DNA from: Parvibaculum sp.
GTDB lineage: Bacteria > Pseudomonadota > Alphaproteobacteria > Parvibaculales > Parvibaculaceae
Reading direction: 5' to 3'
NCBI GenBank assembly: GCA_030682415.1
Contig: JAUXOE010000076.1
Location: forward strand, 1 to 49,908
Length of the DNA: 49,908 nt
Made by a program: the position numbers and the translations under genes. The notes under the pieces are model-generated. The model saw only the letters and a program-made list of their open reading frames with translations, had not been told where the DNA came from and ran no database searches. Within the stretch, counting starts at the first letter, position 1. Every line of letters begins with the position of its first letter. Of this stretch, positions 26-37,107 are shown one piece after another.

Positions 26-116
26 CCGGGGATAAGTTTCTTCTTCATCCGTACACGGATATTATTTTCGGTGGTTTGTGACAGTTTTATGACAGTTTCG
101 TGACAGAAGGGGGGTC
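26..116. repeat. Second copy of the composite element, inverted relative to 29867-29972: CCGGGGATAAGT, 3x TGACAG (11-bp phase), G6 tract
   Basis: CCGGGGATAAGT 26-37; TGACAG at 79, 90, 101; GGGGGG 109-114. Confidence 0.85.
60..106 (-). promoter_or_regulatory. Candidate PhoB-dependent promoter reading leftward out of the window
   Basis: Minus strand: CTGTCACGAAA CTGTCATAAAA CTGTCACAAAC, then 9 nt, then TAATAT. Confidence 0.6.
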
Positions 117-205: not shown

Positions 206-889
206 TTATGCGCTGTCGCGGTTGAAGGCCGCGTCGAAGGTCGATCGGAGGGCGATGTCGACATCGGCCATGGTCGCTGTCAGGCCGAGATCGGCCAGGC
301 TGGTGACGCCATGTTGTGCGATTCCGCACGGCACGATCCCCGAAAAATGATCGAGGTCCGGATCGACATTGAGGCTAACCCCATGAAAGGTCACCCATTT
401 GCGGATGCGCACGCCGATGGCGGCGATCTTGTCTTCGGCCGTCAGCCCGCGCTCGGGGCGGCGGACCCAGACGCCGACGCGGTCGGGCCGCGTCTCGCCG
501 GTGACGTTGAACTGCGCCAGCGTGGCAATCAGCCAGGCCTCGAGGTCCTGCACAAAGGCGCGCACATCGGGGCGCCGGCGCTTCAGGTCGAGCATCACAT
601 AGGCGACCCGCTGGCCGGGCCCATGATAGGTGTATTGCCCGCCGCGTCCGGTCTGGAAGACCGGAAAGCGTTTGGGATCAATGAGATCGGCGGCGTCCGC
701 ACTGGTGCCGGCGGTATAGAGGGCGGGGTGTTCGAGCAGCCAGACCAGCTCCGCCGCGCTCCCCTCGGCGATCGCCGCCACCCGCGCCTCCATCTCCGCC
801 ACCGCCATTTCATAAGGCACCGGCGCATCCGAGACACGCCATTCGAGGTTTTGCGGGTTCGTCTCCGGGCGCGGCAGGGGCTTAACCAT
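206..889 (-). CDS. lipB: Octanoyltransferase LipB
   Basis: Translation has the LipB pattern ...[13 protein letters not shown]...[23 protein letters not shown]...[22 protein letters not shown]... Confidence 0.95.
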
Positions 890-29038: not shown

Positions 29039-29866
29039 ATGCGAACGACAAGCTCGGGTTTTGTTGCTGTCCTGTTGTGGACTGTCGCATTGCATTCAAC
29101 TGCCGCAGCGGTCGAAGCGGAATTGCAGATGCATCGCGCCGTGTACGAACTGTCTCTGGTGCGATCACAGGCGGTCAGCGATGTAGCCGGCATTGAAGGG
29201 CGGATGGTCGTGGAATGGCGCGGCGGACGCGAATGCGGCGGCTATACGTCGATGCAGCGGGTGGTGACGCAGGTGACGGGGGAAGAGGACAGGGCGGTCA
29301 GCAACGACATCCGGCTGAGCACCTGGGAGGCGGCGGATGGCGGCGAGTTCCGGTTCGAGCGGACGGAGTATGTAAACGGCCAACTCGTTGAAAATGAAAG
29401 CGGAATCGCCCGCCGCGCGGGGCCGAAGGGCGCGGTGACGGTCGAGCGCGAGGGGGTGCCTCCGATCGAGATGCCCGCCGAGGTGCTGTTTCCGGTGGCC
29501 TATAATCTGCAGTTGATGGCAGCGGCGAAGGCCGGCCGGCAACTCTTCAGCGCCCCGATTTTCGATGGCACGGAGGAGGCCGAGAATCCGACAAATGCCT
29601 TTATCGGCAAGGACTTAGAGGTACCGGACGACGCTGTTTCCGCGGCTGTGAGCGGCAGCGCTGTGCCGCTGCTGTCCGAAATGACGGCGCGGCCGGTCAG
29701 GCTGAGCTATTTCGACCGCGACGCGCGTGAGGGCCTGCCCAATTTCGAAATGGGCTATGTCCTTCTATCCAATGGCGTTTCGGCGTCGCTGGTGCTCGAC
29801 TACGACGATGTGGTGATGAACGGACGGCTGAGCGAGGTTCATTATTTCGCAGCAGGCAGTTGCTGA
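29039..29866 (+). CDS. Cell envelope integrity protein EipB-like (DUF1849)
   Basis: Signal peptide; HRAVYELSLVRSQAVSDVAGIEGRMVVEWRGGRECGGYT...; last residue Cys, consistent with the EipB Cys pair. Confidence 0.8.
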   Translation: MRTTSSGFVAVLLWTVALHSTAAAVEAELQMHRAVYELSLVRSQAVSDVAGIEGRMVVEWRGGRECGGYTSMQRVVTQVTGEEDRAVSNDIRLSTWEAADGGEFRFERTEYVNGQLVENESGIARRAGPKGAVTVEREGVPPIEMPAEVLFPVAYNLQLMAAAKAGRQLFSAPIFDGTEEAENPTNAFIGKDLEVPDDAVSAAVSGSAVPLLSEMTARPVRLSYFDRDAREGLPNFEMGYVLLSNGVSASLVLDYDDVVMNGRLSEVHYFAAGSC

Positions 29867-29972
29867 AGACCCCCCCCTCTGTCACAAATCTGTCAAAAAA
29901 CTGTCACAAATCGACTTATCCCCGGCCGGCGCCGCGACTTATCCCCGGGGCGAAGTCCGACTTATCCCCGGG
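29867..29972. repeat. Composite intergenic repeat: C8 tract, 3x CTGTCAcAAAt (11-bp phase) and 3x CGACTTATCCCCG (23-bp phase)
   Basis: CTGTCA at 29879, 29890, 29901; CGACTTATCCCCG at 29912, 29935, 29958. Confidence 0.9.
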
Positions 29973-31232
29973 TCAGCGCGGCAGGCCACGACCCTTGCCG
30001 ATCGACTTGTCTCCGAATCGTGCTCTCAGCCGGTCCATCGCGCGTTCGGCGGTGGCGCGCCGCGTCGCCGCCGGGTCGAGCATGTCGGGCGGGTCGGCGA
30101 GATCGGCGGGCACGAGTTGCGAAATGCCGACGCCGAGCAGGCGGAAGGCGGGCCCGACCGCCTCCTTCGCCAGCAGGGGGGCGGCGATGCGATAGATCAC
30201 ATCGGCCAGCTGCGTCGGATCGTGCAGGGTCTGGTTGCGGGTGCGGGTCTTGAAGTCGGCGGTCTTCAGCTTCAGGACCACGGTCGCGCCGGACAGGCCG
30301 GCGGCCTTGGCGCGGCGGGAGACCTTTTCGCAGAGCGGCCAGAGGATGCGGTCAAGCGCGGCGGCGTCCGAAATATCGTCCGCAAACGTCGTTTCGGCCG
30401 AAATGCTTTTGGCGCCCTGGGACGGTTCGACGGTGCGGACATCGAGGCCGCGGGCGAGGCGCCAGAGCCGGCTGCCCATCGAGCCGTAACGCGCCATCAG
30501 CTCGTTTTCCTCCATGCGCTGGAGCTGCGAAATGCGGGTGATGCCGTCGCGGGCGAGCTTGGCCTCGAAAGCCTTGCCGACGCCCCAGATCAGCGAGACA
30601 GGTTTTGCGGCCAGGAAGGAGTGCGTTTCGGCGCGGCCGATGACCGAGAAGCCGCGCGGCTTGTCGAGGTCGGAGGCGATCTTGGCCAGAAACTTGTTGT
30701 GGCTGAGGCCGACCGAGACGGTGATGCCGATCTCCTTTTCGATGCGGTTGACGAGGCGGGCCATGCTGAGCGCCGGCGATCCGTGATGCAGGCGTTCGGT
30801 GCCGGACAGGTCGAGAAAGGCCTCGTCGATCGACAGCGGCTCGACCAGCGGCGTCAATTCCTGCATCAACTGCCGGACTTCGCGGCCGACTTTCGCGTAT
30901 TTGGCCATGTCGGGCGGTATGACGACGGCTTCGGGACAGGCGGCCATGGCCTTGAACATCGGCATGGCCGAGCGGACGCCGCGCACGCGGGCGATGTAGC
31001 AGCAGGTCGAGACGACGCCGCGCTTGCCGCCGCCGATGATCAGCGGCTTGTCGCGCAGGGTGGGGTCGTCGCGCTTTTCGACGGCGGCATAGAAGGCGTC
31101 GCAATCGAGATGGGCGATCGAGAGATCATGCAGCTCGGGATGGAACTTCAGGCGCGGCCGTTTGCAGGACGGGCAGCGCGCCACGCCTTCGGGGGCAGGG
31201 GCGAAGCAATCGCGGCAGAAGCCGTCGCTCAT
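29973..31232 (-). CDS. dinB: DNA polymerase IV (DinB, Y-family) with N-terminal zinc-ribbon extension
   Basis: [70 protein letters not shown]-term [18 protein letters not shown]. Confidence 0.95.
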
Positions 31233-36854: not shown

Positions 36855-37107
36855 TATGGGCATTTCGGTTTCGCCGCCGATGCGCATCCGCTCTCGCTGG
36901 GGGGTGAGTCGGACGCGGTACAGGTGGCGATTTGTGTCCTCGTGGGGTGCTCAGGTCCGCCGCATCTCCTGGGTCCGCGAGGCACGGCCGGTCGGGGCGT
37001 GGTTCATGGAGTGGCCTCCTCTGATAAGCCGCGGTTACCCCGGCCGGCCACCTTTCTATTTCGATCGCAGCAACGAAAAAGCCGGTCCCTGAGGGACCGG
37101 CTTTTTT
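36855..37107 (+). ncRNA. Candidate structured non-coding RNA between pleD and rpmG, family unassigned
   Basis: Complementary helices: 36883-36893/36906-36917, 36923-36927/37048-37052 enclosing 36938-36945/36975-36982 and 36988-36997/37038-37047; ends at a strong terminator; no supported ORF. Confidence 0.5.
37077..37107. terminator. Bidirectional intrinsic terminator (serves rpmG and the + strand transcript)
   Basis: aaaagccggtccc-tga-gggaccggctttttt. Confidence 0.92.

Follow-up and report, generated by a model that had tools for sequence, protein, structure and literature searches.

Dispersed, polar repeat arrays on a common helical phase suggest a chromosome-organizing signal in Parvibaculum

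Do two distant sites on a Parvibaculum contig share a composite sequence by chance, as a regulatory site, or as part of the architecture of the chromosome? Both sites lie in a stretch of 49,908 nt (contig JAUXOE010000076.1; the whole stretch is referred to below as the window), for which the original prediction claimed three shared modules in the same order and in inverted orientation. Indeed, the layout of CGGGGATAAGT, three TGACAG repeats at 11-bp steps and a G-run was recovered at both sites. Site 1, on the plus strand, consists of a CGGGGATAAGT module (27–37) upstream of the TGAC array, a core (75–106) in which TTTG precedes three TGACAG repeats (79–84, 90–95 and 101–106) at exact 11-bp steps, and the G-run AAGGGGGGTC (107–116). 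For site 2, on the minus strand, a single copy of the first module had been mentioned, whereas three are present: GGGGATAAGT occurs at 29960–29969, 29937–29946 and 29914–29923, exactly 23 bp apart, within CGGGGATAAGT modules that span 29960–29970, 29937–29947 and 29914–29924. The last of these is located 17 bp before the first TGACAG, which is a recurrent distance, and is followed by the core (29879–29910; TTTG and three TGACAG at 11-bp steps, with the repeats at 29879–29906) and by the G-run AGGGGGGGGTC (29868–29878). Around the core, the information content in this genome is about 74 bits, and modules of the CGGGGATAAGT type are enriched around the elements. The G-run tail is lineage-specific, being found at 51 of the 66 copies in this genome and at 3 of 60 in a second genome, G001.

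Site 2 is situated between the 3′ ends of two convergent genes, dinB (DNA polymerase IV; 29973–31232, minus strand; IMS, E = 8e-49) and a gene for an EipB-like protein (29129–29866, plus strand; PF08904, E = 1e-66), both of which end at the site. The DinB protein shares 96% identity with that of a Parvibaculum sp. MAG, which places the window in this genus. Site 1, at the contig start, lies 3′ of a lipB-like gene for a lipoyl/octanoyl transferase (206–889, minus strand) that ends toward it, and the gene on the opposite side is beyond the contig end. The window contains no other TGACAG triples. A palindrome, ATCCGTACACGGAT, at positions 47–60 and without a strand assignment, represents an optional third motif that was found near 12 of the 66 copies; the palindrome TCCGTNNACGGA, which often takes the form ATCCGTACACGGAT and precedes A/T-rich DNA, is 13–22 times denser near elements, at 47–60 and at other element loci, and it may be a hairpin, a terminator or a third binding module. 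The only Rfam matches in the window, neither of them at the elements, were one tRNA and the small RNA EcpR1 (RF02500, Atu_C6, 85.7 bits; 36935–37054, plus strand), a known alphaproteobacterial sRNA related to the cell cycle.

A chance origin, which the original prediction had considered hard to accept, can be discarded. The exact TGACAG triple occurs in 64 copies in this 2.97-Mb genome, compared with an expectation of about 1e-4 (18 fixed bases, 3 Mb); the double-repeat matches of the window were equalled in 0 of 100 shuffles; and GGGGATAAG was found within 300 bp of 46 of the 66 copies (70%), for which the density far from elements predicts about 1–2%. Thus, the element is dispersed and genome-wide, as had been proposed. 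The search of the genome and its relatives, which had been set beforehand as the check that could refute the proposal through a lack of further copies or of conservation, revealed both. The general form [TGACR-N6]x3 is present in 48–76 copies in 14 of 27 Parvibaculum genomes, in 16 copies in one incomplete genome and in 0–2 copies in the remaining 12. The element is thus dispensable in the genus, as these 12 genomes manage without it. Elsewhere in the family, the genera contain 0–1 copies of the general form, and in a class-wide sample of 387 alphaproteobacterial genomes only the two Parvibaculum genomes that it included exceeded the background, the highest count outside Parvibaculum being 7, located in tandem repeats. 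The half-site differs between species: it is TGACAG here, TGACGG or TGACAG in G014, and TGACGTT (CGTCA half-sites) in G017 and G026. Parvibaculum indicum (G020) has no element genome-wide by pattern, a de novo search of 200 kb of its DNA for 11-bp triples recovered no recurrent motif, and the one orthologous gap examined was empty. No credible match was found in phages, and a literature search retrieved no description of the motif. In the G000 assembly, many copies lie at most about 600 bp from contig ends (e.g., C49, C106, C114, C146, C199, C201, C202 and C220), and further contigs with copies near their ends are C235, C237, C265, C277, C282, C286 and C293; the repeat therefore probably contributes to the fragmentation of this assembly into 296 contigs.

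The original prediction had left it open whether the modules form one element or a Pho box that recruits a second factor. The arrangement of the modules argues for one element. Near elements, motifs of the GGGGAYAA type, most of them located 5′ of the core, are about 9–380 times denser than elsewhere, the factor varying with motif and strand (this genome and G001), and their distances to the first TGAC cluster at 17, 28, 40, 51, 62 and 73 bp. In a Rayleigh test, the upstream positions showed a period of 11.25 bp here (R = 0.90, n = 86) and of 11.2 bp in G001 (R = 0.83, n = 58), with R values of 0.35–0.65 marking the 99.9% level of the null. Sites in opposite orientation were phased as well (R = 0.93 and 0.87), as were downstream CTGTCA sites, and the phase is shared with the TGAC repeats out to about 100 bp. 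In G017 and G026 the same module resides on the 3′ side of the core, at a fixed +11/12 bp. The modules differ in number, side and order but stay in helical phase and, because this phase of about 11.2 bp is common to both, the GGGGAYAA and TGAC modules belong to one composite element. Taken together, the element is a polar composite of about 100–130 bp in which three TGAC(A/G) at 11-bp steps are combined with GGGGAYAA/TTRTCCCC on the same helical phase. At one locus, L073 in G005, tandem CCCGGGGACAAGAAAATAAAAACGTCCCCG units adjoin an element, suggesting a local expansion of the GGGGAYAAG module.

Where are the copies located with respect to genes? With genes predicted by a simple codon-based caller, 60 of the 63 copies in this genome and 53 of the 60 in G001 fall outside genes. 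The gaps that harbor them are convergent in 33 of 97 cases (34%), compared with 30 of 226 other gaps (13%; odds ratio 3.4, p = 3e-5), and divergent gaps are underrepresented. In tandem gaps there is no clear preference of element orientation relative to gene direction (29 L-R- versus 23 L+R+, both genomes). The neighboring genes are unrelated; their sequence starts, which were not subjected to a family search, suggest an Era-like GTPase, TrpS, DnaB and RpsB.

These positions bear on the possibility that the triple is a Pho box with three half-sites, bound by PhoB during phosphate starvation in an expanded Pho regulon of about 60 operons. The likeness to the operators of PhoB, a member of the OmpR family, is considerable: Pho boxes have the same layout of CTGTCA at 11-bp steps, with TGTCA half-sites in 11-bp direct repeats; over 35 bp, the core shares 91% identity with a site on a Nitratireductor plasmid, 26 bp before an operon for DUF4956, a polyphosphate polymerase and a phosphate transporter; and upstream of phoB, at a distance of about 6 kb, G001 has a related triple. 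PhoB is present, the core is a plausible PhoB site, and binding to the copies may well occur. However, the element prefers gaps without promoters, its neighbors are not the phosphate gene set, and its presence does not follow PhoB, since the PhoB of P. indicum, which has no elements, is 87–91% identical. In addition, the half-site drifts to the CGTCA form in sister species while PhoB is conserved, and a Pho regulon predicts neither the even spacing nor the orientation rule described below. The element set is thus poorly explained by Pho regulation, and we regard this reading as improbable, with about the same standing as the replication signal discussed next.

On the scale of the chromosome the copies are evenly spaced, at about 47–82 kb. 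The coefficient of variation of the spacing is 0.60 in G001 (one contig of 3.59 Mb), 0.61 in G014 and 0.54 in G018, compared with 0.92–0.98 for random placement (p ~5e-5, 3.5e-4 and <2e-4, respectively). Moreover, the distance between neighbors depends on their relative orientation. Among gaps shorter than 26 kb in five genomes are 27 of 44 facing pairs (-> <-, 3′ sides inward), 10 of 146 tandem pairs and 0 of 49 pairs that point apart (<- ->). The median gaps of facing pairs are 17–45 kb. An interval that lies on the 5′ side of one or more elements typically measures 40–85 kb and can be 30–110 kb long, whereas intervals with 3′ sides only are mostly short. Shuffling of the labels resulted in p values of 0.0005–0.028 in each of the five genomes. 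The rule was first seen in G001, G014 and G018, and G017 and G026, tested afterwards, agree; pooled p values for the rule are too optimistic, given the common ancestry of the genomes and its discovery in three of them.

The orientation also shows a modest bias from ori to ter, which comprises 41 of 60 copies in G001 (68%, p = 0.003) and 32 of 48 in G014 (67%, p = 0.015). For this mapping the origin was placed by the parS pair, because sampled loci gave too noisy a GC skew, and the terminus was taken as antipodal to parS. In G001 the orientation changes at the parS/ori locus, and at the parS flanks on contig C7 of G018, 3 of 4 copies on the left are minus and 9 of 10 on the right are plus. In four species (G014, 1409913; G017, C12:113066; G018, C7:224432; G026, C1:130007), a plus-oriented element follows the parS pair on its right at a distance of about 3 kb, and G001 has none at this position. 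A search for dif sites led instead to a repeated promoter motif of the TetR type, CATAATGGTGATTATATAAA. Two copies of it, separated by 1.3 kb, lie beside a TetR-like gene (L220; G001, C1, 30988 and 32274), and it is also present in G000 and G018; it is probably an operator, not dif.

The switch and the biases are what would be expected of a signal for replication polarity or recombination, similar to KOPS, Chi or Ter, that is read by a machine moving along the replication arms. Yet one third of the copies point the wrong way, many of them far from ter, and these minority copies lie at rule-governed distances rather than at random; about 60 copies of an array of about 28 bp also differ greatly from the short, frequent and strongly skewed KOPS and Chi. 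This explanation is therefore also improbable in our judgment. The comparison with KOPS, the FtsK-gamma sites of E. coli, which are dispersed and asymmetric and follow the ori-to-ter direction (PMC2680272), illustrates the point. The dispersal, the asymmetry and the polarity are shared, whereas KOPS is the 8-bp GGGNAGGG with a strong skew and the element is a phased array of about 100 bp with about 60 copies, a rule for neighbor distances and a skew of about 67%, which is far weaker.

Two features of the copies are informative about their history. An orthologous neighboring gene accompanies a G001 element for 41 of the 66 copies of this genome, and 40 of these 41 elements have the same orientation. 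The dinB-EipB site is kept, with varied sequence, at L139, L140, L141, L143, L144, L146, L147 and L149, and it is also present in G001, while at L142, L145, L148, L150 and L151 it is absent and the genes nearly abut. The flanks of orthologous element pairs are more similar (identity 0.49–0.52) than those of non-orthologous pairs (0.30), whereas the cores of orthologous pairs are no more alike (0.81 versus 0.80), and the cores within this genome have an identity of 0.90. Thus, the places of the element are old and were inherited vertically together with the orientation, and within each genome the cores change in concert, either by co-evolution with a reader protein or by homogenization. At its base, the dinB tree does not separate one gain with losses from several gains.

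Concerted evolution, together with the many near-identical intergenic copies, is also a property of dispersed mobile repeats of the REP/RAYT, MITE or transposon-end type, which would be homogenized by transposition. Immunity that extends over tens of kb occurs in some dispersal systems, and target immunity of this kind might account for the even spacing. Against this reading, which appears slightly less probable still than the two above, stand the vertically inherited positions and orientations, the observation that no terminal inverted repeats or sharp borders were seen, and modules that vary in number, side and order yet stay in helical phase; in addition, immunity would not distinguish -> <- from <- ->. 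A Y1/RAYT transposase was found in 0 of 15 element-bearing genomes and only in P. indicum, which lacks the element. Dispersed and intergenic like REP/BIME and MITE sequences, the element thus differs from them in its stable places, its phasing, its even spacing and the missing RAYT gene; a REP-type imperfect palindrome or hairpin was likewise not found in the core, which consists of direct repeats without significant folds. Very unlikely, finally, are transcription terminators or 3′ processing signals, which the convergent gaps, the frequent location within 60 bp of a stop codon and the C/A-rich other strand of the core with its Rho-site-like 11-nt YC spacing would fit, but about half of the copies are in tandem and some in divergent gaps without clear orientation relative to genes, the z scores of the RNA folds are ordinary (-0.3 to -1.7), and the spacing, the phase and the orientation rule would be left unexplained.

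Of the original alternatives of a regulatory or a chromosome-architecture element, architecture is thus the better supported, on the basis of the even spacing, its dependence on orientation and the enrichment in convergent gaps, and local regulation recedes. It is likely that the element is a functional, protein-binding site with a role on the scale of the chromosome, and the evidence suggests a previously undescribed chromosome-organizing signal rather than a set of ordinary gene switches. Three further systems offer parallels. The ParR/parC and TubR/tubC plasmid centromeres consist of helically phased direct repeats of about 11–12 bp on which a protein array assembles, as we predict for the element itself, but they form a single plasmid locus beside their own par genes, whereas the element has many chromosomal copies and no known partner gene. 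The nucleoid-occlusion sites of Noc and SlmA are similar in number to the element copies, and they are palindromic and without orientation. Like the element, these sites (NBS and SBS) are specific and scattered around the chromosome (PMC4331003, PMC4117426). The element, however, is made of polar direct repeats and not of a palindromic site. At the boundaries of animal chromatin domains, the relative orientation of CTCF sites decides between long domains and short boundaries; the organisms and the sequences are unrelated, and the likeness would be confined to the way of working, polar sites whose relative orientation sets long or short intervals.

From the anatomy, distribution and spacing we infer a chain that leads from the array via a protein to a domain. 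A putative oligomeric DNA-binding protein would land on the composite array with one protomer per helical turn, on one face of the DNA, and the protomers would assemble into a polar nucleoprotein array. In mechanical terms, the long intervals on the 5′ side and the mostly short ones with 3′ sides only would be explained most simply if each element served its 5′ side. We hypothesize, on the basis of the spacing, that the array would thereby load, anchor or stop a chromosome-organizing machine, for example SMC or a DNA translocase. To our minds, the chances that a polar nucleoprotein array organizes the chromosome by acting on the DNA at its 5′ side are evenly balanced. Regarding the reader, the search brought up no binding factor: no regulator of the OmpR/PhoB type was specific to G001 and G014, the two element-bearing genomes compared, as all those common to both have an orthologue in P. 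indicum. More tentatively, and with a clearly smaller probability, the elements could constitute a bacterial CTCF-like system of polar, phased boundary or loading elements with a lineage-specific reader protein and directional domains of about 50 kb, in which neighbors would enclose either a domain or a short gap, depending on their relative orientation.

The domains of bacterial chromosomes are commonly explained by transcription, SMC complexes and abundant nucleoid proteins, and no comparable element that would specify domains through its sequence and orientation is known to us. With all copies changing in concert at fixed places, the set may represent a case in which a protein and its sites throughout the genome co-evolve. 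If the proposed chain holds, Parvibaculum would provide about 60 mapped, polar, natural sites per genome together with element-free relatives within the same genus, so that domain formation and its evolution would be open to direct testing.
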